Position numbers and translations under genes: made by a program
Virus record (IMG/VR): IMGVR_UViG_3300027971_000262
Span: 1 to 21,023 of that record
Strand: one strand, 5' to 3'
From: a virus
Length of the DNA stretch: 21,023 nt
Shown here: positions 1,171 to 14,823 of the stretch, in pieces
Layout: the number at the start of each line of letters is the position of its first letter
How positions within the stretch are numbered: the first letter of the stretch is position 1
The notes under the pieces: model-generated
Database searches by the model: none
Told to the model about the DNA's origin: nothing
The model's input: the letters and a program-made list of their open reading frames with translations, nothing else

Positions 1171-1245
1171 GGACGCGAGGCGGGACTCGAACCCGCGACC
1201 TCCCAACACACTTCGTGGGACTCTTCCAACTGAGTTACTCGCGCC
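1171..1245 (-). tRNA. tRNA-His-like gene (anticodon GTG), with degenerate anticodon arm
   Basis: The minus strand folds as a type I tRNA numbered without insertions. The acceptor GCGCGAG pairs with CTCGCGT and carries an extra G at -1 opposite C73, the bacterial tRNA-His identity signature. T8 and A9 are present. The D arm is ACTC/GAGT around AGTTGGAA, the variable loop AGGTC, and the T arm GCGGG/CCCGC around TTCGAGT. Canonical numbering then places GTG at 34-36, decoding His. The anticodon stem is poor: CCACG against TTGGG gives two pairs and a G-T wobble, and position 33 is A instead of U. A register shift gives four good pairs but a 10-base loop. CCA is not encoded. It may be a decaying phage tRNA or a tRNA mimic. 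Confidence 0.75.
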
Positions 1246-1784: not shown

Positions 1785-2051
1785 CTAACACGCCCCGGAC
1801 TTGTCTCCGGCGGCCTCAAGCAGAGCGCGGAGCCGGCGGATCTCGGCTGCGGCATCCTCGAGAATCTCAAACGAGAACGGGCTATCGGCGGGCACCGCGG
1901 CGATAGCTTCCAGCCGATCGGCAATGTCCGGCTCCGGCGGTGCCGGCAGGCGGGCCAGCGGCTTGCCGTTCGCCGGCACGTGGCCGGCACAGAAGTGCCG
2001 GCCGTCGGCGTCTCGCCAGCGGGCAGGGGCTGAGCAGCGGGTGCAGGTCAT
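1785..2051 (-). CDS. Small protein with N-terminal zinc-binding knuckle and C-terminal helix (88 aa)
   Basis: The gene begins MTCTRCSAPARW and has a CxxC knuckle at residues 3-6, with C21 and H24 as possible further ligands (HFCAGH), suggesting a tiny zinc finger. The C-terminal half, EDAAAEIRRLRALLEAA, is a heptad-like helix often seen in short phage proteins. It is preceded by AAGGAG and overlaps the stop of the replication-like gene as ATGA, so the two are probably translationally coupled. No firm function. Confidence 0.8.
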   Translation of the reverse strand: MTCTRCSAPARWRDADGRHFCAGHVPANGKPLARLPAPPEPDIADRLEAIAAVPADSPFSFEILEDAAAEIRRLRALLEAAGDKSGAC

Positions 2052-2911
2052 GTCGTCTCCTTCGTGAGTGATTCCAAGACCTTCCGCTTCGTCGCCTCAA
2101 ACCGCTGGGCGTCGTCGCCCGTCCAGACCGCCGGCGGGGCCTTCTCCGGCTCCCTGCCGCCCCGCTTGGCCTTGGGGGCGTCGTACTGCCCGCCAAGGCA
2201 CAGATCCACGAACCGCGGGCCGACGAACTGCACAAGCGTCACCGGCGTCTCAAAGTACCGGCACTTGCCGAGCCGCTTTGTCGCCTCTTCCGCCTTGTCG
2301 CCCCAGCCGACTTCCGCCAGCCGATCCGACCAGCCGTCCGGGGGCGTGGTGGGCTTCCACTCGCGGCGATTACCGGCAGCCGCCCCGGCGTTCCAGGCAG
2401 CCCGGAACGCCTTCCACGTCTCTTCCGGGGATTCCGGCTTTCCTTGCGCAGCTTCTCGCGGAGGAGGAGGATCTTCTCCTGTATCTCCTCTATCTCCTCT
2501 CCCGCGCTTGAGCGCCGGATCTTCCGGCGCTTGAGCGCCGGGACTGCCGGCGCGTCGGCGTTTGTCCTCGTACGAGGTCGCCCGATCGGCCTGCTGGAGC
2601 CTCGACTTGGCCGCCTGGCTGAACCGGCGATCCCACCCTGGGATAGCAACGGTGGCGTCCGTCTCGTCGATCTCCAGCCACCCGACGGCGGCCACGTGAT
2701 GCCAAAAGGCTTGATCCTGGCCGCACGTCCGCACGAGCCGCGGAATGGTCATCCGTGCCCGGCCGTTGGCCGTGTTCAACGCCGCCCAGCCCCACAGCCG
2801 CAGGAGCGAGAAGACGATCTCCTCGACCGGCCGCCCGGTCGTGTCGATCAGCTCCTGCACCTCCGGCTTGTCTGGCAGACCGATGTCGTAGGCAATCCAT
2901 TCACCCGCCAC
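2048..2911 (-). CDS. Putative replication-initiation or DNA-binding protein (winged-helix-like N-terminus)
   Basis: The start is taken as GTG at 2911, which shares its G with the TAG stop of the upstream zinc-finger gene and has GGGGAGGA five bases before it. This gives 287 residues beginning VAGEWIAYDIGLPDKPEV. An upstream start would run through that gene. Residues 1-110, with TGRPVEEIVFSLLRLWGW, ARMTIPRLVR and VAAVGWLEI, resemble phage proteins with a DnaD/replication-protein-O-like winged helix that read DNA near the origin. A charged low-complexity linker follows (about 115-175). The C-terminal half has EETWKAFRAAWN and RYFETPVTLVQFV, the latter like the C-terminal part of DnaD-type phage replisome organisers. 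I assign a replication role tentatively. The immediate neighbours are small zinc-ribbon genes. Confidence 0.75.
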   Translation of the reverse strand: MAGEWIAYDIGLPDKPEVQELIDTTGRPVEEIVFSLLRLWGWAALNTANGRARMTIPRLVRTCGQDQAFWHHVAAVGWLEIDETDATVAIPGWDRRFSQAAKSRLQQADRATSYEDKRRRAGSPGAQAPEDPALKRGRGDRGDTGEDPPPPREAAQGKPESPEETWKAFRAAWNAGAAAGNRREWKPTTPPDGWSDRLAEVGWGDKAEEATKRLGKCRYFETPVTLVQFVGPRFVDLCLGGQYDAPKAKRGGREPEKAPPAVWTGDDAQRFEATKRKVLESLTKETT

Positions 2912-3168
2912 TATTCGTCCTCCCCGTAGTTCTCGCCGTGGTAGGACCGCTCCGCCCCGACGTTCCTGCACTCGTCGCAAAATCGCTTTTCGCCTCTGAA
3001 CTCTCGCCCGCACGATTCGCAAACGTCCGGGGCTGTCTTGTTGGAAATCGCGTCTGAATGGCTCGCCGGAAGCCCAAACGACTTGCGGCCCTCGCATCGT
3101 GAGCAAACGCCGCTCTTGCTCCGCGTGTCACGGCCGCAAAACAGGCAGCACACCAATTCACCCGCCAT
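2911..3168 (-). CDS. Double zinc-ribbon protein (85 aa)
   Basis: The protein begins MAGELVCCLFCGRDT and contains four CxxC knuckles: CLFC, CSRC, CESC and CDEC. That is enough for two zinc ribbons separated by about 25 residues. The stop TAG provides the first base of the next gene's GTG start, so expression is likely coupled to the replication-like gene. The start overlaps the end of the preceding gene by 11 bases. A nucleic-acid-binding or adaptor role is plausible from the fold alone. Confidence 0.8.
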   Translation of the reverse strand: MAGELVCCLFCGRDTRSKSGVCSRCEGRKSFGLPASHSDAISNKTAPDVCESCGREFRGEKRFCDECRNVGAERSYHGENYGEDE

Positions 3169-3441: not shown

Positions 3442-4593
3442 TCACTCGCCAACTTGCCTTCTGCCCCTGGATCGGTTGAGAATCGCAGGCTCGGCGAACG
3501 TCTCCGTCCCTCCATCCGCGTGGGGAACGAGGTGGCTTTCGTCGTACCCAGCCTGGGCTACGATCCGCCGGGATCGCTTGAGCTGCTCGATCTTCGGTCC
3601 ACCAAAAGCCTCGCACTTAAAAAGCCACTTGAGCGAGACTTGATCGATGCGAAACAGCATCGGCGTGCCATCCACTTCGATCTCGTATCGCGCCGACCAC
3701 GTTTTCCTGTTTACGTTCGACGCCACGAACCAGCGGACCAACTCCACGAACGCATCAGACGGGCACCCGATGCTCTTGATGTGCAGGTAGGCCGAATACA
3801 TAGCGCGAACGGCCGTCATGTCCCAACGCTTGGCGTCGAAAGACTTCGTTTCTTCGGAAAGCAGGGCGTTCACACTCTCGATCGCTCTGATGAATCCGTC
3901 GCACTTTGATTGCCATTCATCTCGATTTCCATCGAGCCATCCTCGCACCCTCCGCTCGATCTGGTCGCTGATGCTTCGCTCAGACTTTGCGTAGAGCTGA
4001 AGGTCTTTGTGGCGGGTTGCGTACTTGTAGAACAGACCGAGGCTGTGCCTGTGCAACTGGCCGGCCTTCTTGCGGCCGTGCTCGCTTGAGCGACTGATAC
4101 CCGCCATGCCGACCGACAAATCGTCTACTGTCGTCCGGACCATCTGGTACAGCGATCGGCCGGCATCATCAGATTCCAAGTCGCCGCGGTACTTCTCGTA
4201 CGGAATCAGCCCAACCCCGTCGTTAAGGTGCTGAAAGTCCATCCGGGCATCGTCGTGGGTTTCGTACACCATTGACTGCTGGGACACCTGAGCGCCGCGC
4301 AGCGACTCAACCTGCTCCCTGCACAATCCGTACTCGGATGGACCATCGATTGCTCGCATGAGCGTTGTGATTCGTTGCCTTCCATCCTGAAGAAAACTTG
4401 TGTTCCCTCCCTTGAGACGGTAGGTCGTGATTACTCCGAGCACGTGACCGAGCGAAATCGTCCTAGCGAGGAAATGGTTGGCCTTTTTCTGCGTCCACAC
4501 GTACTCGCGCTGGTAGTCGGGATCAGTCAACTCCTTCGACCGATAGTCGTTGACGATGTCCCTGGCGTACCTCGTTGATGGTCCAAGATTCAT
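3442..4593 (-). CDS. DUF262 domain protein with C-terminal HNH-like nuclease motif
   Basis: The ATG at 4593 overlaps the methyltransferase stop as ATGA, giving 383 residues. Residues about 10-80 show the DUF262 (GmrS/ParB-like) pattern: DPDYQREYVW, the helix FLARTISLGHVLGVI, and the signature DGRQRITTL at 70-78, which in this superfamily is the nucleotide-handling motif. A helical middle follows. The C-terminus has ESHLVPHADGGTE (H354) and EPAILNRSRGRR (N373, R), the layout of an HNH/His-Me nuclease. DUF262 plus HNH/DUF1524 is the architecture of GmrSD and SspE restriction enzymes, which cut modified DNA using nucleotides. Here the partner is an adjacent DNA methyltransferase. I infer a restriction or superinfection-exclusion role. 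GC is visibly lower than in neighbours. The domain calls are by eye. Confidence 0.8.
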   Translation of the reverse strand: MNLGPSTRYARDIVNDYRSKELTDPDYQREYVWTQKKANHFLARTISLGHVLGVITTYRLKGGNTSFLQDGRQRITTLMRAIDGPSEYGLCREQVESLRGAQVSQQSMVYETHDDARMDFQHLNDGVGLIPYEKYRGDLESDDAGRSLYQMVRTTVDDLSVGMAGISRSSEHGRKKAGQLHRHSLGLFYKYATRHKDLQLYAKSERSISDQIERRVRGWLDGNRDEWQSKCDGFIRAIESVNALLSEETKSFDAKRWDMTAVRAMYSAYLHIKSIGCPSDAFVELVRWFVASNVNRKTWSARYEIEVDGTPMLFRIDQVSLKWLFKCEAFGGPKIEQLKRSRRIVAQAGYDESHLVPHADGGTETFAEPAILNRSRGRRQVGE

Positions 4594-6029
4594 TGGTTCA
4601 CCTTCGTTCCACTGAGCCTCACGTGTGCCACATCCGAAAACGTCTCGCTCTTCTCGACACCGACGTACTTCCGGCCGTTTCGCACTGATGCAACGCCGGT
4701 GGTTCCGCTTCCGTTGAACGGATCGACGACGAGATCGCCGGGCATGGAAGCACAAAGGACGATCGGCTCGACCAGGGCCAGGGGCAGTTGCGTGGGGAAG
4801 TCTGGGATACGCTCCGCGCAAGTCCCGGTCAGCCTCGGGATCTGCCACACGTCGTCCCAGAGCTTCCCGCCGGCTGAGGCGCGACTGTCGCCGTACTTCG
4901 TCTGGCGATCGCTCGGGCGAGTCACCGGCTCCGGGTTGAAGACGAAAGACTTCTCGTCCTTGACGGCATAGAAGATGTGGCGGCTTGTTCGGTTGAACTT
5001 GTTCTGGCAGTTCACGCCGAAAGTCTCGTACCACTTGATCCACGACCGGAGAGTCAGGCCCCGACGCTTGAGGATCATGGCGTATTCGGCAGCGTACTCG
5101 TCGCCAATCATCACCCACAGCGAACCATCTTCGGTAAGACAATCGCAGCACAGCCCGATCCATTCATCCACCCACCGCAGGTAAGCGCCGTCCGAGAGGC
5201 TGTCGGCATCCTTTCCTGGGCCATAGTCGATGCCGATGTTGTAGGGTGGGTCGGTGAAGATTAGCCGCGCCGGCCCGTGCTCGTCTCGCACGGAAGCTAG
5301 ACCGTCGAGGACATCGACGTTGAGAATCGACCACTCAGGACGGCCGGTTTCATGCTCGACGGCCTTCGCGGCCGCCTCCTCGAGCTCCAGGCGGCGCTTA
5401 CGGCTGCGAATCTCCCGCAGCGCTGCTGCGGGCTTCATTTCAAGTGCCGCGACTTTCTTGGCGAGATCGCTGTGGCTGCATATCTGCTCAGCACGGCCCA
5501 TAGTGCCGGTCGATGCACTGGCTTCGGCAGCGCGCGCCTCGCGTGCGACGTGCTTGCCGCTGTTGTTTAGACGCGGCTCATTGTGATCCGCGTCTAAAGC
5601 CTTTTGCTTGACAGAGGCGCGCCCAACTTTTCCGTCTGAAGCTGCTTGAGATTTTTTCCGATTCGCCTCCTTCTTGATCTCTCCGTGCTTCTTCTCCCAC
5701 TTCTCCGATTCCTTCTGATACCGAATAAAGATCACGCACTTGACCGTCTCGTCCAAGTCGCGCCGCGGGCCGTTCATCGTCCAGGCGTAGTCCCACGGAT
5801 TGCCTCGATACTCTCGAGTGATCGGCTTGAGACCTAGCTCGATGCAGGCGCGGTAGCGATTGCGACCGTCGAGAATCATGCCATCACAAATCGTGATTGG
5901 CTCTTCCTGCCCCTTCTTCTTGATGTCGTCTCGCAGTTGCGCAAACGCCTTGTCTTTCATCATGGGCCAGCCGTCTGCGGCCGGGTGACCCTTAAGCTCC
6001 ACCATCGTTGCTGGCATGCTTCCCTCCAT
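4590..6029 (-). CDS. ParB-like domain fused to beta-class DNA methyltransferase
   Basis: The start at 6029 follows the upstream stop by two bases and has GGGGGAGGG seven bases before it; an internal ATG at 6017 with GGAGGG is an alternative. The 479-residue protein has an N-terminal ParB-like nuclease/CTPase-fold domain (about 8-75: LRDDIKKKGQEEPITICDG, then LDGRNRYRACIELG). A basic helical linker with lysine-rich segments follows (about 95-230). The C-terminal SAM-dependent methyltransferase has catalytic DPPYNIG at about 260 and the SAM-binding DPFNGSGTTG at about 436. Motif IV before motif I defines the beta class, so the product is N6-methyladenine or N4-methylcytosine in DNA. ParB-methyltransferase fusions are known in phages. 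Here it overlaps the DUF262-HNH gene, suggesting it either protects against or works with that nuclease. Confidence 0.92.
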   Translation of the reverse strand: MEGSMPATMVELKGHPAADGWPMMKDKAFAQLRDDIKKKGQEEPITICDGMILDGRNRYRACIELGLKPITREYRGNPWDYAWTMNGPRRDLDETVKCVIFIRYQKESEKWEKKHGEIKKEANRKKSQAASDGKVGRASVKQKALDADHNEPRLNNSGKHVAREARAAEASASTGTMGRAEQICSHSDLAKKVAALEMKPAAALREIRSRKRRLELEEAAAKAVEHETGRPEWSILNVDVLDGLASVRDEHGPARLIFTDPPYNIGIDYGPGKDADSLSDGAYLRWVDEWIGLCCDCLTEDGSLWVMIGDEYAAEYAMILKRRGLTLRSWIKWYETFGVNCQNKFNRTSRHIFYAVKDEKSFVFNPEPVTRPSDRQTKYGDSRASAGGKLWDDVWQIPRLTGTCAERIPDFPTQLPLALVEPIVLCASMPGDLVVDPFNGSGTTGVASVRNGRKYVGVEKSETFSDVAHVRLSGTKVNQ

Positions 6030-6031
6030 AG

Positions 6032-6361
6032 TCACACCCTCCCCCCACACACCACCCGCCACTCCGTCTCGCCCCGCCTGGCGGCCGACTTGACCTCCAG
6101 CCCCGTCCGCTCGACCTTGCCGAGCCGCTCGAGCCGCTTCATGCGGCGGATCACCTGCTGATCGCTCATGGTGCCGATCCGAGCCGCCAGCTCGGTCTTG
6201 CCGGCCGGCCCGGCGGCCAGCGCCGCGAGGATAAGCCGTTCGTGTTCGTCAACCGCGGCGGCCGTCATCGCCTGCCCGGCCGCCACCGATGTCGGCGGAT
6301 CGGTGCGGCGGGCCGGGGCCGCGTCAAAGTCGAGGAAGTGCTGGCCCTGGAAGGTCGTCAT
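6032..6361 (-). CDS. Winged-helix DNA-binding protein (109 aa)
   Basis: The ATG at 6361 overlaps the preceding stop as ATGA and yields MTTFQGQHFLDFDAAPARRT. The N-terminal part contains DPPTSVAAGQA, a motif common in phage proteins that carry a MarR-like winged helix. Residues about 50-100 give the domain: HERLILAALAAG, KTELAARIG, SDQQVIRRMKRLERLGKVE, with a wing around TGLEVKSAARRGETEWRVV. It likely binds DNA and could regulate the methyltransferase/nuclease pair that begins two bases downstream of its stop. That regulatory link is inference from adjacency. Confidence 0.8.
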   Translation of the reverse strand: MTTFQGQHFLDFDAAPARRTDPPTSVAAGQAMTAAAVDEHERLILAALAAGPAGKTELAARIGTMSDQQVIRRMKRLERLGKVERTGLEVKSAARRGETEWRVVCGGRV

Positions 6362-9531: not shown

Positions 9532-9980
9532 GCTCCGATCACCTCCCATTTCGGCGTTGTGTTCGCTCGCAGCCATTCGGCCTGCGCGGCCCTGGCTGCG
9601 TCCCAGGCTGCGTCCCTGGCTGCGGCCCCGGCTGCGGCCCAGGCTGCGGCCCTGGCTGCGGCCCAGGCTGCGTCCCAGGCTGCGTCCCCGGCTGCGGCCA
9701 ACTCTTCGTCCGTCGCTTCGCCGTTTGCATACCTTTCGGCCACGCCAAGAGCCGCCAGCGATCGAGCGTCGGTCATCAAGTGCTGCACCTGACGGGCCGA
9801 CCACACCGCAAAAAGCCGCAACTCACGATCAGTAAGGACGCCCGGTCGCCTCGCCACCCAAAGCAGCCAGTCATGCCGTGCCCATCGCCAAACCTCGTCC
9901 ATCGTCTCGCATGTGCTTTCAGCCCACTCGCGGCCTTCGCGGCAAGCGCGGTGCTTATCCATGAACTCTTTGATTGTCAT
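9528..9980 (-). CDS. Phage protein with Ala/Trp-rich tandem repeats (150 aa)
   Basis: The N-terminal 95 residues (MTIKEFMDKHRACREGREWA, VWRWARHDWLLWVARRPGVL, TDRELRLFAVWSARQVQHL) form a family I know from many phages that ends in a variable repeat tract. Here the tract is about 36 residues of AAWDAAWAAARAAA type, encoded by about nine copies of a 12-base unit. Repeat number varies between relatives in this kind of protein, as expected for slippage. The gene overlaps the ATPase stop as ATGA. The function is not established. The C-terminus, EWLRANTTPKWEVIGA, resumes non-repeat sequence. Confidence 0.85.
   Translation of the reverse strand: MTIKEFMDKHRACREGREWAESTCETMDEVWRWARHDWLLWVARRPGVLTDRELRLFAVWSARQVQHLMTDARSLAALGVAERYANGEATDEELAAAGDAAWDAAWAAARAAAWAAAGAAARDAAWDAARAAQAEWLRANTTPKWEVIGA
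9586..9698 (-). repeat. Tandem 12-base repeat, about nine units
   Basis: On the plus strand the unit is gcgKCCCNGGCT (K is G or T), repeated head to tail and differing only at a T/G position and an a/t/c position. It lies in frame in the Ala/Trp-repeat gene and encodes four residues per unit, so changes in copy number keep the frame. Confidence 0.85.
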
Positions 9981-10876
9981 GCCGTCACCTCGATCTCGAT
10001 CTCGCCATGCCGCTGGTCGATCAGGATGTCGAGCTGATCCCGCTGCTCCGCCGTCAGCTTGCCGTCGCTGACGGCCTTCTCGGCGTCGTCGGCGATCCGG
10101 CCCAACTCGTCGACGGTCACCGCCTGGGCGACGCGGTCACGCCAGCCGGGCCGCTTGGCAGGCTCGGCGAAGATCGGACCGAGGCTGTCGATCGTCATGG
10201 GCAGCTCGGCGTCGAGGCCGTACCTGTTCTTCGCGTCCCACGCCGCGGCCCGCTCAAGGTGCAGGAGCCGACGCTTGCCGCCGGTGGCCTTCTTGCGGCC
10301 GTCCGATCCCTCGGTGACGTTTGTCTTGTAGTTGCAGAACGCCAGGAGGTCGCACCACTCCTTGAGCAACGGCGCGGTCTGCTTCGTCAGCTTCAGCTCG
10401 TAGCGGTCGAAGCCGTCCGCCATGTCCGGCGGCGACGTTCGCTGCACCTTGGAATGAGCCACGAAAGCCACGTTGAGCCCGACACCGATCAGCGCGTCGC
10501 ACTGCGTCAGGAACCGGCCGAAGCCTTCGGCAAGGATCGTGTAGCCCTTGCCGAATCCGAAGCCCTCGATCGACTTTTGCTTGTGCTCCACGAGCAGGCT
10601 CTCGATCAGCAGCCGCTCGGCCCAGTCCGCCGAGTCGATGACCACCGTGCGGAACTCGCTGGGCTTGCTGCCGATCTCGGCCACCGCGGCCCGCAGCTCG
10701 TCCCACGAGCCAATCGACACGCGGGCCACGTCGAGGTGGTGCGTCCCCTCTTCCGTGTCAAGGATCACCGGCGACGGGAACGCCGCTGCCAGCGTCGATT
10801 TCCCGATGCCCTCCGTCCCGTAGATCACCGCCCGTACCGGCGTGTGCCGGCGTCCCCGCTGAATGTTCAAAGCCAT
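9977..10876 (-). CDS. Sak4-like RecA-fold ATPase (phage recombinase, AAA_24 type)
   Basis: The 299-residue protein has Walker A GTEGIGKST at residues 20-28 near the N-terminus, an acidic strand VILDTEEGTHHLD (37-49), and Walker B TVVIDSADWAE (77-87). These are followed by GFGKGY and FVAHSKVQ, which match the sensor region of phage RecA-fold ATPases of the Sak4 type. Sak4 proteins promote single-strand annealing and strand exchange with a phage SSB. The position in an early operon with an SSB-like gene supports this. The C-terminal 60 residues (ITVDELGRIADDAEKAV-like helices) resemble a DUF-type tail that binds partners. The start has AGGAG nine bases upstream. Alternative: a generic phage AAA ATPase without recombinase activity. 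Confidence 0.85.
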   Translation of the reverse strand: MALNIQRGRRHTPVRAVIYGTEGIGKSTLAAAFPSPVILDTEEGTHHLDVARVSIGSWDELRAAVAEIGSKPSEFRTVVIDSADWAERLLIESLLVEHKQKSIEGFGFGKGYTILAEGFGRFLTQCDALIGVGLNVAFVAHSKVQRTSPPDMADGFDRYELKLTKQTAPLLKEWCDLLAFCNYKTNVTEGSDGRKKATGGKRRLLHLERAAAWDAKNRYGLDAELPMTIDSLGPIFAEPAKRPGWRDRVAQAVTVDELGRIADDAEKAVSDGKLTAEQRDQLDILIDQRHGEIEIEVTA

Positions 10877-11492: not shown

Positions 11493-11720
11493 TCACTCGA
11501 TCTCGATGTCCGAAGGCGAGACGGTCACGAACACCTCGTCGTCGATCTCCACGATCACCCGAAACTGATCCGAGTGGCAGCACGTGCCGGACCAACGCTT
11601 GCCGGCCGTCGTGCCGCGAATCGCTTCGCCACGCTCCGGCAGCCGCCGGCCGTAGAGATCGATCATCCCGGCGATCGCCCCAGCCGCTTCTCGATCACCG
11701 ACCATCGTTTCGCTCGCCAT
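11493..11720 (-). CDS. Hypothetical protein (75 aa)
   Basis: The start MASETMVGDREAAGAIAG has AGGAG upstream and overlaps the end of csrA by 26 bases. The sequence contains GKRWSGTCCHSDQFRVIVEI and ends VFVTVSPSDIEIE. The second half is beta-rich. Function unknown. It is followed by about 100 bases that hold a hairpin before the next gene. Confidence 0.7.
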   Translation of the reverse strand: MASETMVGDREAAGAIAGMIDLYGRRLPERGEAIRGTTAGKRWSGTCCHSDQFRVIVEIDDEVFVTVSPSDIEIE

Positions 11721-11910
11721 GTCCCGTCTCCTGTTGCTCGAGCCGCTTGAACAGCTCGGTCCTGTAAATCGCTTGGTCGTGGTTCGCCACGACCTCCAAT
11801 CTCACGCGGTCGCCTCTGATGCTGTGGACAACGACCACAACGTCATCTGATGGACGATCACCGGGCACGGTGATGGATTGGCCTTCTCTTCGATCAAGCC
11901 GGAGCGGCAT
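11695..11910 (-). CDS. csrA: CsrA-family RNA-binding translational regulator
   Basis: From the ATG at 11910 (GAAGGA six bases upstream) the 71-residue protein reads MPLRLDRREGQSITV, then DDVVVVVHSIRGDRVRLEVV, then QAIYRTELFKRL. This aligns with the CsrA/RsmA core: strand 1 with the LxRREG motif (R7-R8), the middle strands ending in RGDRVRLxV, and the C-terminal YR (R50) matching the RNA-contacting Arg44 of E. coli CsrA, followed by the helix start ELFKRL. About five extra residues lie between strand 1 and DDVVV. CsrA dimers bind GGA in mRNA leader hairpins and control translation. Here it is the second gene of the leftward operon and would be positioned to control phage or host messages. The start lies within the upstream gene's 3' end. 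Confidence 0.85.
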   Translation of the reverse strand: MPLRLDRREGQSITVPGDRPSDDVVVVVHSIRGDRVRLEVVANHDQAIYRTELFKRLEQQETGHGERNDGR

Positions 11911-12257
11911 TCCTGTTCCTTCGCCTTTTTGGTGGACTTCCACCGCTGATGGACTTCCTGTCTCTGACGCTGCCGGTACTCGACCGTCTTGCTGCTCGGA
12001 CGAGCCGTGCAGCCGAACTGTGCGAGCTGCCTCTGCTCTTCCGTCCAGCCGGCCTGCACTTCCTTCGCCCGCTTCTTAATCACGCTGCTGATCGGGTCGT
12101 GTGGCGTCGGAAGGCCGGTCCGCACCGACCACTCGTGCCACACCCGATCAACCGAATCCCGCACCACCCAAGCCGTCGTTTTCACGCTCAAACCGATCCC
12201 GAAGCAGATGTCGATCAGGTCTTGATCGAGCCTCCCGTTCCCGCCGTGCGTTTCCAT
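11802..12257 (-). CDS. Hypothetical first gene of the leftward operon (151 aa)
   Basis: The start METHGGNGRLDQDLIDICF is preceded by AGGGGATTCA. The first 75 residues, with IGLSVKTTAWVVRDSVDRVWHEW, RTGLPTPHDPISSVIKKRAK and VQAGWTEEQRQ, look like a compact helical domain that is plausibly conserved. The last 36 codons lie on top of the 5' half of csrA in another frame and read as less structured (NPSPCPVIVHQMTLW), so the natural end may differ, for example through a frameshift in this copy. Nothing in it is diagnostic of a function. As operon leader with csrA it may be regulatory. Confidence 0.75.
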   Translation of the reverse strand: METHGGNGRLDQDLIDICFGIGLSVKTTAWVVRDSVDRVWHEWSVRTGLPTPHDPISSVIKKRAKEVQAGWTEEQRQLAQFGCTARPSSKTVEYRQRQRQEVHQRWKSTKKAKEQECRSGLIEEKANPSPCPVIVHQMTLWSLSTASEATA

Positions 12258-12440
12258 TGAATCCCCTAACGCTGTACACCCGTTCACTTAGATGAATCGA
12301 TCCTACCGACGTTTGCAGTTGGGTCACCCCCATAGAAACGCGGGAGAAACGGGCGTCCTTGCCAAGGTGTCCAGTAGTGTTCTTCGACGAACACTGTCTC
12401 CACCAAAAACGTCCTGGGGGTTTCAATCCCCGGACGCATG
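12258..12440 (-). promoter_or_regulatory. GGA-rich 5' leader of the leftward operon
   Basis: Between the predicted transcription start near 12440 and the first ATG lie about 183 bases. The minus strand carries seven GGA triplets, several in contexts such as CCAGGACG, AAGGACG and TAGGATCG. Near the 5' end a hairpin GTCC/GGAC plus GGGG/CCCC (12411-12435, one-base bulge, eight-base loop) can form. GGA is the core of CsrA sites, and csrA is the second gene of this transcript, so autoregulation is plausible but inferred. Confidence 0.4.
12377..12394. promoter_or_regulatory. Operator-like imperfect palindrome, copy 1
   Basis: GTGTTCTTCGACGAACAC is symmetric except for one base pair and is followed by TGTC. 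It shares a 20-base block with copy 2 at 12454, their starts 77 bases apart. Its flanks give only a weak promoter (GAGACA and TACTGG on the minus strand). It lies within the leader transcribed from the copy 2 promoter, so a protein bound here could block elongation. Confidence 0.6.
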
Positions 12441-12447
12441 GGGGGGG

Positions 12448-12477
12448 AATCTAGCGTTCTTCGACGAACACTGTCAA
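12448..12477 (-). promoter_or_regulatory. Leftward promoter with operator copy 2 filling the spacer
   Basis: On the minus strand -35 TTGACA (12477-12472) and -10 TAGATT (12453-12448) are separated by exactly 18 bases. Those 18 bases are the palindrome GCGTTCTTCGACGAACAC (12454-12471). This fits a repressible early promoter for the gene at 12257, csrA and the recombination genes. Hexamer and palindrome are read directly; repressor identity is unknown. Confidence 0.65.
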
Positions 12478-12526
12478 GCCACGTTTTTTCACGACTGGGA
12501 AAACGCTTGCGGGGGCACGATTCAGG

Positions 12527-12763
12527 CTACTTGCGGCGATTCCGCCGAGGCGCTGGATCGGATTTTCTTTCAGCCCCAAGGCTCCGCGGAAGAGATCCGC
12601 GGAGGGATGCCGCCGCCTTGGCGGAAACCAGCCATTCACGGCCGATCTTCTTGCAGTCGATCGCCCCGGCTCGGCACAGCCGGGCGATGTGTGTCGGCGT
12701 GCAGCCGGCCAACGCTGCGGCCTCGAGCGTCGTCACGATGTCGTTGATGTCGATCGTTGCCAC
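12527..12763 (-). CDS. Excisionase-like helix-turn-helix protein (78 aa)
   Basis: The start is GTG at 12763, chosen because GGAGGT precedes it by six bases. Upstream ATG codons at 12913 and 12850 have no such site and would pull the start into the operator region. The protein reads VATIDINDIVTTLEAAALAG, then THIARLCRAGAIDCKKIGREW, then VSAKAAASLRGSLPR. This is the helix-turn-helix 17/MerR-like layout of phage excisionases: an AAALAG recognition-helix segment, RAGAI wing and REWLVSAKA. It is divergent from the integrase with a 218-base gap. The C-terminus is basic (APRRNRRK). A transcriptional regulator of similar fold is the alternative. Confidence 0.75.
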   Translation of the reverse strand: MATIDINDIVTTLEAAALAGCTPTHIARLCRAGAIDCKKIGREWLVSAKAAASLRGSLPRSLGAERKSDPAPRRNRRK

Positions 12764-12839
12764 GCCGCACCTCCGCCGCGCATCAGCTTTCGCCTCTGCG
12801 TACTGTTCACTGCCGACCGATAGTTCAACGGAGAGGGCG

Positions 12840-12884
12840 GGATTGTACATCCGTCTAGTACTGACCAAGCGTACAGTACAATCC
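12840..12884. promoter_or_regulatory. Inverted repeat with divergent TACAAT -10-like boxes between xis-like gene and integrase
   Basis: GGATTGTAC (12840-12848) is repeated exactly inverted as GTACAATCC (12876-12884), with 27 bases between. Each arm contains TACAAT reading outward: leftward towards the excisionase-like gene and rightward towards the integrase. TACAAT is one base from the consensus -10. A smaller inverted pair, GTACTG/CAGTAC, lies between. No convincing -35 boxes were found. The rest of 12764-12981 shows no gene I can support. Confidence 0.5.
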
Positions 12885-12981
12885 TTCTTGCACCTTCGGT
12901 CGGCGCAGGACACGGGAGGTAGGACGCCGAGCCTACTGACCGACGCGCACGGATGCGAGGGCGTTTAGCGGAGCCTTTGCC

Positions 12982-13887
12982 TTGAAACTTACGGAAGCAC
13001 TGAGCCGGTACGTGGTGATCCAAGACCTGTCGGCACGGTCGGAAGTTCTCTACCGGCACTCGATCGCAAAGTTTGCCGAGCACCTCGGCCACGAGCCGAC
13101 GGCCGACGATCTCACCAGCATGCGTGTTGCCGAGTTCCTTCGGTGGCGGGCCACCAACACCCGAGCCGGCAAGCCGATCTCGCCCGACAGCGTAAGCAAG
13201 GATCGGTCGCAGATCCTTGCCCTCTGGCGTTGGATGCGTGAAGAGGATTTGACCGTCGGCAAGATGCCGAGACTGAAGCGTCGGCCGAAGATCGCACGGA
13301 CGCCGCGGGCGTACACGTCGAACGACATCGCCCGGCTGATCGTGCAAGCTCGCAAGCGCCGCGGCCGCACCGGCGGCCTGCCGTCGGCCTGGTGGTGGTC
13401 GTCGATCTTGTACGCGCAGTGGTGCTGCGGTGCCCGCATCGGCGAGTTGATGCAGCTCCGGTGGCGGAACGTCGATCTCGTCGCCGGTCGCGTGCTCTTC
13501 GAGGCTGACACGCGGAAGGGCAGGCGGGCCGACATCTCCCACGCCTTGCCGGCCGATCTATGCCGGCAGCTCGAGGAGCAACGCGGCGGCCCCGACGATC
13601 TCGTCTGGCCGTGGGACCGTAATCCCACCAGCATCTACCCGTCGTTACGAGTCCTCTGCCGGACTGCCGGCGTCGCCTACCTTCCGTTCCATGCGGTCCG
13701 GAAGTCCTCGGCGTCGTACGTTCACGCTGGGGGCGGGGACGCCACGGCCCACCTGGGGCACCACAGCACCGAGATGACGCGGACGCACTACCTCGCCCCG
13801 GCGATCACCCAGACCCGCTCGGCCCTCGACTACCTCCCCACCCTCGATCTCGGCGAGGAGGCCGAGTTCGTGCCGGACGCGGAATAG
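12982..13887 (+). CDS. int: Tyrosine recombinase / phage integrase
   Basis: The 301-residue protein begins at a TTG (GGAG about ten bases upstream) as MKLTEALSRYVVIQ. An N-terminal SAM-like core-binding domain covers about 1-95 (SARSEVLYRHSIAKFAEHLG, RSQILALWRWMREE). The catalytic domain carries the full set: R152 in CGARIGELMQL, K179 in DTRKGR, H237xxR240 in FHAVRKSSAS, H260 in LGHHS, and nucleophile Y270 in TRTHYLAP. It should integrate the phage and, with the excisionase, excise it. The divergent arrangement with the HTH gene is typical. An attachment site is expected nearby, but no core sequence can be identified without the host junction. A TTG start suggests low expression. Confidence 0.95.
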   Translation: MKLTEALSRYVVIQDLSARSEVLYRHSIAKFAEHLGHEPTADDLTSMRVAEFLRWRATNTRAGKPISPDSVSKDRSQILALWRWMREEDLTVGKMPRLKRRPKIARTPRAYTSNDIARLIVQARKRRGRTGGLPSAWWWSSILYAQWCCGARIGELMQLRWRNVDLVAGRVLFEADTRKGRRADISHALPADLCRQLEEQRGGPDDLVWPWDRNPTSIYPSLRVLCRTAGVAYLPFHAVRKSSASYVHAGGGDATAHLGHHSTEMTRTHYLAPAITQTRSALDYLPTLDLGEEAEFVPDAE

Positions 13888-13898
13888 GCAGTTTCCCA

Positions 13899-13929
13899 GC
13901 GGAAAACCGCCCCCCAAAAAATCTTTTTT
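13899..13929 (+). terminator. Weak hairpin after integrase
   Basis: GCGG/CCGC around AAAA (13899-13910), then CCCCC, an A run and TCTTTTTT ending at 13929. The T run is detached from the stem, so it would be a weak intrinsic terminator at best. It is followed by a promoter from 13938. Confidence 0.3.
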
Positions 13930-13937
13930 CACCCTAC

Positions 13938-13965
13938 TTGACCACAATGGACGATTGTCTATACT
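13938..13965 (+). promoter_or_regulatory. Rightward promoter with operator-like dyad in the spacer
   Basis: -35 TTGACC (13938-13943) and -10 TATACT (13960-13965) are 16 bases apart. The spacer includes ACAAT-GGACG-ATTGT (13944-13958), a dyad whose ATTGT half recurs in the inverted repeat at 12840-12884. It would drive the three small plus-strand genes from 14004. Confidence 0.65.
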
Positions 13966-14003
13966 GACACCAGACGAGAACGACACCACCAAGGAAACGA
14001 ACG

Positions 14004-14240
14004 ATGAACGCCACCAAGCAAGCCGACCTGATCGCCAAGCTCCAAGCCTTCGCCGGAACCCTGGACATCAACGACGCTCGCGTAGATGTCGGGACCACGG
14101 ATTGGGACCGCGATGTCGTGTGGCTCAAGTGGCGCGCGATTGGCTGCGAGCGAATCCGCAGCCGTCAGTGTGGGCTGACCACCCACGGCATCCGGTACAT
14201 CAAGCAGCAGATGAAGGAGGTCGAGTCCCAGTTGGCCTGA
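14004..14240 (+). CDS. Hypothetical protein (78 aa), first gene of the rightward short operon
   Basis: The start MNATKQADLIAKLQAFAGTL has AAGGAA about nine bases upstream and lies 39 bases after the -10 box. The sequence is mixed alpha/beta with WDRDVVWLKWRAIGCERI and ends in a helix RYIKQQMKEVESQLA. No recognisable domain. The position beside the integrase and under a dyad-containing promoter fits a lysogeny-linked gene, but there is no direct evidence of a repressor fold. Confidence 0.75.
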   Translation: MNATKQADLIAKLQAFAGTLDINDARVDVGTTDWDRDVVWLKWRAIGCERIRSRQCGLTTHGIRYIKQQMKEVESQLA

Positions 14241-14251
14241 CGCCCGCCCCA

Positions 14252-14276
14252 CCCGCCCGGCGCTTCGCCGGGCGGG
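14252..14276 (+). terminator. Strong GC hairpin after first rightward gene
   Basis: CCCGCCCGGCG (14252-14262) pairs perfectly with CGCCGGGCGGG (14266-14276) around CTT. There is no T run after it, so it may be an attenuator or a mRNA end-stabilising hairpin and not a simple terminator. Confidence 0.5.
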
Positions 14277-14305
14277 CCACACCCCAGGGAAAAGGAACGA
14301 CGACT

Positions 14306-14626
14306 ATGGCAAGACGACGAGACAGGATGCTTCGCTCAGTGTCGCGTGCGCACGACAACCTGATGTTGATGACGACGTTCCGCGGCAGCGTTCCATGCGT
14401 GACAGCCGCCACGGATTCAATGGTGGAGGTGGCTAACGGCGAGAGCCCGGCATGGGTTTACCTGCCGTTGGATTCCGTCATTCGTTCAATCGTCTCCGAG
14501 CACGACGACCACACGATCACGGAACTCCGGAAGATCGTCAGCAAGGCCGTCCGTGAAGGTTTCGCGCAGGGCGTTGCTGACCGGAAACGGAACGGCGGAA
14601 AGGCAAAGGTGTGCGCAAGCCTATGA
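14306..14626 (+). CDS. Hypothetical protein (106 aa)
   Basis: The start MARRRDRMLRSVSRAHDNL has AAGGA nine bases upstream. The N-terminus is basic. The middle is beta-like (SPAWVYLPLDSVIRSIVSEH), followed by helices ELRKIVSKAVREGFAQGVADR, the last with an F-x-x-G-x-x-D-R pattern. It ends RKRNGGKAKVCASL. The stop overlaps the next start as ATGA. No family assigned. Confidence 0.75.
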   Translation: MARRRDRMLRSVSRAHDNLMLMTTFRGSVPCVTAATDSMVEVANGESPAWVYLPLDSVIRSIVSEHDDHTITELRKIVSKAVREGFAQGVADRKRNGGKAKVCASL

Positions 14627-14823
14627 CAAGCATCAATACCACCGACTACGTCCGCCCTTCCACCGCGGCCACGCTCGCCGGCGTGAGCCGCGCCCTGGCG
14701 TACCGGATGGTGAAGGACGGCACGGTCCCGAGCGTCGAGATCGACGGCACGGTGTTCGTCCACCGGCGGGATGTCCGGCTGATCGTGGCGACGCCGGGGA
14801 TGGGGCGGCCGAGGAAGACTTGA
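14623..14823 (+). CDS. Small helix-turn-helix protein (66 aa)
   Basis: The ATG at 14623 overlaps the previous stop as ATGA; a GTG at 14611 would add four residues. The sequence shows PSTAATLAGVSRALAYRMVK, then GTVPSVEIDGTVFVHRRDVR, the layout of helix-turn-helix 17/excisionase-type domains (AAxLAGVSRxxxYRMVKxG, V-x-I-x-G-x-xFVxRxD). It could be the regulator acting at the dyads in the control region, or a second excisionase. It ends the rightward mini-operon and is followed by a strong hairpin. Confidence 0.8.
   Translation: MTSINTTDYVRPSTAATLAGVSRALAYRMVKDGTVPSVEIDGTVFVHRRDVRLIVATPGMGRPRKT

Follow-up and report, generated by a model that had tools for sequence, protein, structure and literature searches.

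A palindrome pair exchanged together with a small wHTH gene: a candidate immunity cassette at a predicted leftward promoter of an uncultured phage

Results

Layout of the Locus.

In the window—the whole 21,023-nucleotide stretch analyzed here, positions 1 to 21,023 of virus record IMGVR_UViG_3300027971_000262—a tyrosine integrase gene (12982..13887, plus strand) diverges from a small wHTH gene of the Xis/MerR-like, HTH_17-like kind (12527..12763, minus strand; 78 aa, GTG start), which we propose as a repressor gene and whose start is probably 12763, not 12913. Behind the wHTH gene lies a predicted leftward early promoter (12448..12477, minus strand; −35 TTGACA at 12477–12472, −10 TAGATT at 12453–12448) with an A6 tract directly upstream (12489–12484). 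Two candidate operators, O1 (12375..12398) and O2 (12452..12475), flank a hairpin followed by TTTTT (12405..12436, minus strand; loop ATTGAAAC). A conserved noncoding leader (12258..12374, minus strand) leads from O1 to the first gene of the leftward set (11802..12257, minus strand; 151 aa), which has no PHROG match. Further leftward genes encode a Sak4-like ATPase (9977–10876), a DNA methylase (4590–6062), a GmrSD-N domain protein (3442–5163), and a replication initiation protein (2048–3106). Gene order suggests a single leftward operon, and the GmrSD-N protein and adjoining methylase (3442–6062) are a possible restriction-like or defense pair. The window also carries a tRNA-Thr gene (anticodon agt; 1171–1244, minus strand) and, at 9590–9700, a run of near-identical, GCTGCG-rich 12-base units; an Rfam scan of the window gave no match.

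Two stretches near the integrase gene vary among relatives. The intergenic stretch 12845–12885, between the wHTH and integrase genes, has two or more alternative forms that do not track operator type, one GTAC-rich and present in the window, another reading ACACTTGT..ACAAGTGT; promoter control of the integrase and wHTH genes and an attachment site are both possible roles. Similarity to many relatives breaks directly after the integrase gene and resumes near 14811–14821, so that 13888–14820 is possibly another variable cassette, near attP.

A Palindrome Pair Confined to O1 and O2.

O1 is a near-perfect 20-bp palindrome (AGTGTTC.TCGA.GAACACT; 9 of 10 pairs), and O2 retains 8 of 10 pairs. Both copies of the near-palindrome named in the original prediction were recovered where it had placed them, at 12377–12394 and 12454–12471, with 20 consecutive identical bases; the 24-mers 12375–12398 and 12452–12475 agree at 23 of 24 bases, with one mismatch. 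Searching the window for the palindrome pattern with at most three mismatches gave four strand-matches (two sites on both strands) against 0.06 expected, a count reached by 0 of 100 dinucleotide shuffles. Within the entire 21,023-base record, the core GTTCTTCGACGAAC (at most one mismatch) is confined to O1 and O2. The symmetric form GTGTTCKTCGAMGAACAC occurs in four viral contigs among 2.9 million scanned: three are close relatives with the site at the same locus, and one is an unrelated contig with the site inside an ORF. The downstream repetition of the O2 spacer site in the window is significant against shuffles (P = 0.005). On the wHTH/integrase side, where the wHTH gene's own promoter would lie, the window has no copy of this site (P = 0.24), and autoregulation by the wHTH protein is therefore not visible in this phage.

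The original prediction also held that the second copy fills exactly the 18-bp spacer of a minus-strand promoter, TTGACA-18-TAGATT, and the coordinates bear this out. This is the sole promoter-like site in 11500–13500, where 0.3 would be expected by chance; the promoter match taken alone is weak evidence.

Operator Type Tracks the Adjoining wHTH Gene.

An integrase search returned 68 viral loci, of which 17 close ones reach far enough left to be aligned with the window, giving 18 sequences; L011 and L021, close as well, begin too near the integrase gene and were left out. The original prediction had pointed to relatives as the place to look for the motif, and in the 17 alignable ones the layout is kept and the palindromes are swapped as a pair. 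Four operator types are seen: type A, AGTGTTC..GAACACT (window, L007, L008, and L009); type B, AAGGGC..GCCCTT (L003–L006, L010, L012–L015, and L018–L020; n = 12); type C, AGCGAACG..CGTTCGCT (L016 alone); and type D, AAGGTT..AACCTT (L017 alone). O1 and O2 are of the same type within each of the 18 sequences, and the type tracks the adjoining leftward wHTH gene in 18/18, although these sequences are kin with only four types among them and hence amount to four cases, not eighteen independent ones. Measured against type A, wHTH protein identity is 68–69% for type C, 31% for type D, and 19–25% for type B. The alignment keeps the sequence left of O1 and the hairpin string TTTCAATCC, and the −35 hexamer and the TA of the −10 hexamer are retained in all 18 sequences despite differing spacer sequence. 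Type B is found beside integrases that share about 98% and about 71% identity with that of the window; the operator thus goes with the wHTH gene rather than with the integrase. Scanning for the conserved flank together with the loop yielded 13 contigs, all already among the loci analyzed, and no further operator type.

The same comparisons bear on whether the repeat is a chance or nonregulatory one, such as a hairpin element. That reading could draw on how little the promoter match says by itself, at 0.3 sites expected; the significance of the motif and the persistence of a palindrome pair in fixed positions while its sequence changes completely make it scarcely credible.

Symmetry is greater in O1 than in O2 for types A (9 vs. 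8 of 10 pairs), C (8 vs. 6), and D (7 vs. 6); in type B, O1 has 8 pairs and O2 8 or 9, and O1 is not the more symmetric. The downstream O1 could possibly be the stronger site.

Cassette Borders.

Pairwise identities locate the exchange. Between the window and L003 (type B), identity is 83% in the left flank, 38% in O1, 54% in the middle, 43% in promoter/O2, 44% in the wHTH gene, 78% in the wHTH–integrase stretch, and 94% in the integrase gene. The corresponding values against L009 (type A) are 83%, 96%, 98%, 100%, 97%, 81%, and 93%. In BLAST comparisons with all 12 type-B relatives, similarity breaks off at 12376 (at 12373 for L013) and picks up again at 12757–12759, so the unit exchanged in type B spans O1 through the opening codons of the wHTH gene. 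Such sharp borders are a feature of type B alone: against type D (L017), the break in similarity lies between 12432 and 12694, and against type C (L016) similarity continues through the cassette. The sites, the promoter match, the covariation of the operator pair and the linked gene, and these borders can all be read directly from the DNA.

The borders also bear on host LexA, which the original prediction had listed among possible binders, and on core sites of the integrase. The GTTC/GAAC words are reminiscent of SOS boxes, and the integrase gene lies nearby. Several type-B relatives, however, have integrase genes 92–94% identical to that of the window and yet carry different palindromes, which follow the linked wHTH gene. 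An SOS box would be conserved across phages sharing a host group, independently of linked phage genes, and these sites are not. We consider a LexA operator or integrase core sites highly improbable and reject both, together with any other host factor, as the partner of the palindromes. From the same list of binders, the protein encoded at 12527 stands as the likely partner and LexA does not fit; the other DNA-binding candidates (6032, 14623, and 18863), for which family scans alone were made, lie outside the exchanged cassette.

Recurrence in Distant Relatives and Probable Host.

Loci whose integrases are about 38–48% identical commonly have a promoter 29–54 bp behind the wHTH stop. A promoter of the form TTGA[CT]N, 15–19 bp, TANNNT was found by script behind the wHTH gene at 43 of 66 loci, to which L016, missed by the script, is added. 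The 66 comprise the window, 64 of the 68 integrase-search loci, and L105; L011, L021, L068, and L069 were omitted for too short an upstream stretch. Promoter matches at L035, L039, and L041 adjoin another ORF and were excluded from the count, and misses stem partly from scant upstream sequence (L022 and L066).

Of 18 representatives examined, 15 have a further copy of the spacer site downstream (P = 0.005–0.02, uncorrected for the number of tests); several representatives share a type, so that independent cases number fewer than 15. Among distant representatives the sites include CTGTACGAT..CGTACAG-like ones 77–79 bp apart and GTTCATACGC..GCGTATGAAC-like ones 31–39 bp apart. L045 and L023 lack a copy downstream and instead repeat the spacer site on the wHTH gene's own side (P = 0.02 each). 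L105 has the promoter, with the spacer site repeated neither downstream nor on the wHTH side.

A genome search with the window integrase as single query gave no relative; the same search with the integrase alignment gave two contigs of one Planctomycetaceae MAG, and one of them, L105, has by eye the gene order of the window. Whole-genome searches with the alignment matched 4 of 392 genomes of the MAG's phylum (at E 1e-15) and, within its family, 3 of 72 (at E 1e-40). L113, from one of two genomes of that family with an integrase relative, carries a TTGACG-16-TAAAGT promoter together with a wHTH gene and, downstream, a palindrome; the layout was not clearly shown at L110, L111, L114, and L115 on inspection. 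Searching with the wHTH alignment added L103 and L104, where a comparable domain forms part of a longer protein in another setting; these were excluded. In an annotated phage collection, 32 records had an integrase match, none covering 80% of the query, and Sak4 matches were widespread. The integrase relatives in the MAG and its family make a planctomycete the likely host of the window phage.

Hairpin and Leader.

The hairpin starts about 5 nt past the transcription start expected from the −10 hexamer. In each of the five sequences folded, it was more stable than in shuffled controls, with z ranging from −2.55 to −5.61. Its stems vary by type, but 14 of the 18 sequences retain GGATTGAAAC; the exact string is missing in L004–L006 and L014, with GGATTGAAAT in L004. 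The T run that follows has five residues in types A and C, three to four in type B, and three in type D. The hairpin may act as a weak terminator or attenuator or as a protective 5′ stem; the sequence scan that picked out the promoter listed no terminator. We take GGATTGAAAC to resemble the 3′ end of many CRISPR repeats, and nothing was found beyond that resemblance.

The leader (12258–12374, ~115 bp) is 71–90% identical to the 11 relatives compared and is conserved although the adjoining cassette differs in nine of them. Its conserved blocks are GGTGACCC, CTAAGTGAACGGG, and TGGACAC..TGGCAAGGA, and it is perhaps another control element. A 51-aa ORF across O1 and the hairpin (12284–12439) was set aside, as relatives differ there by one-base insertions and deletions.

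A Small wHTH Protein with Xis Kinship.

The wHTH protein has an HTH_17-like match below the Pfam cutoff and no CI-type match, and its PHROG matches are excisionases. A profile of 17 wHTH proteins matched mycobacteriophage Pukovnik Xis (4j2n; E = 2.9e-8), BldC (E = 0.013), and P2 Cox (4lhf; E = 0.016); unrelated proteins also appeared in this search, at E = 0.004–0.006. The structure predicted for the window protein (mean pLDDT 71.7, pTM 0.53) has a helix at 12–19, a recognition helix at 23–32, a two-strand wing, and a helix at 48–54. Structure comparison gave Z values of 6.0 for BldC, 5.4 for Pukovnik Xis, and about 4–5 for MerR proteins, a middling range. Foldseek found no PDB match at E ≤ 0.001, and the fold assignment therefore rests on the profile search and the middling Z values. 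Differences between type A and type C proteins fall on 6 of 11 positions in the recognition helix vs. 17 of 67 elsewhere (P = 0.058, or 0.071 when the window's own allele is used), which only hints that these changes are denser in the helix.

Such kinship raises the question of whether the protein is mainly an excisionase or Cox-like directionality factor, with the palindromes as its sites and promoter control as a secondary role. Like Xis/Cox proteins it is a small wHTH with Xis sequence kinship; its nearest solved relative is an excisionase, and its gene adjoins that of the integrase. The sites, however, lie 500–610 bp from the integrase start, beyond the wHTH gene, with one exactly in a promoter spacer, and distant relatives place sites of unrelated sequence in the same way. 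A predominantly excisive role is on this evidence unlikely; directionality and promoter-regulating roles can nevertheless be joined in one protein, as in P2 Cox.

The BldC and MerR matches likewise raise the possibility of a MerR-like activator acting from the spacer palindrome, a position typical of MerR regulators. Activators of this kind work from overlong spacers of 19–20 bp, whereas the spacers are 18 bp here and 16–18 bp in relatives, with good hexamers; 78 residues leave no effector domain, and a second downstream site is foreign to the MerR scheme. We regard MerR-like activation as decidedly unlikely. Because the spacers are of 16–18 bp with good hexamers, occlusion is favored over activation, and the wHTH protein is likely a repressor.

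Discussion

The original prediction placed the leftward operon under a phage regulator acting through the palindromes, a proposal now supported by the paired change of both palindromes with the wHTH gene while hexamers and flanks stay constant. We propose that the wHTH protein probably represses the leftward early promoter through O2 and O1 and that the cassette would set immunity type. A dimer on O2 would cover the promoter spacer and exclude RNA polymerase. O1, past the hairpin and 77 bp downstream, is slightly more symmetric, and another dimer bound there would reinforce repression by looping or by stopping elongation; the roadblock that the original prediction assigned to this copy and O1–O2 looping are equally possible. 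Without the wHTH protein, the promoter would drive the leftward recombination and replication operon. Exchange of O1, hairpin, promoter/O2, and wHTH gene as a unit between related phages would then change immunity type. Binding, dimer formation, repression, roadblocking, lysogeny, and immunity are what we infer from the DNA. Given the Xis kinship, an additional role of the protein in excision is possible.

Extended to the family, the proposal becomes tentative, and we hold it slightly less likely than not: a temperate phage family, probably of Planctomycetota, may use excisionase-fold wHTH proteins (~75–95 aa) as immunity repressors, diversify its palindromic operators by cassette exchange, and hold in the GGATTGAAAC hairpin a second control at the RNA level. 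If so, uncultured, probably planctomycete phages would have a readable immunity code, in which operator–wHTH pairs could be matched, several at a time, purely from sequence. A small Xis-fold protein would fill a role usual for CI-like repressors, and the types would form a natural protein/operator series for studying DNA choice by the Xis fold. A literature search found no Xis-like immunity repressor or planctomycete phage repressor described, which does not prove that none exists.

Several known systems share parts of this arrangement. In lambdoid phages, CI sites at the PL operators cover the leftward early promoter and the immunity region is exchanged between relatives, and the window resembles them in both respects. 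It differs in having just one operator within the promoter and another beyond it, downstream, and in a 78-aa Xis/MerR-like wHTH protein that lacks the CI-type C-terminal oligomerization domain and so falls outside the CI family. P2 Cox and Pukovnik Xis resemble the protein in size and fold, and some Xis/Cox proteins, Cox among them, also regulate promoters; here, in contrast, palindromic sites lie within a promoter well away from the integrase gene, and no link to an attachment site was found. To MerR and BldC proteins the wHTH protein shows structural similarity at middling Z values, and the locus has, like theirs, a palindrome in a promoter spacer, but the spacer is of 16–18 bp and not overlong, there is no effector domain, and a second site lies downstream.

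Cluster A mycobacteriophages provide the best parallel among the accounts consulted: their repressors and sites diverge together (PMC6550527; see also PMC9283540). L5 and Bxb1 have an operator within the early leftward promoter Pleft, stoperators beyond it, and heteroimmunity, much like the arrangement proposed here (PMC6550527). Their sites are many per genome, 13 bp long, and oriented (PMC6550527). Cluster A sites are also asymmetric, whereas the window has two palindromes only. Compared with the Cluster A system, the window has a very small 78-aa Xis-like wHTH protein and a hairpin inside the cassette. As in a heteroimmunity module, a DNA-binding gene is linked to operators at a predicted early promoter, and regulator and operators are exchanged together; the cassette would work like the repressor–operator systems of heteroimmune temperate phages.
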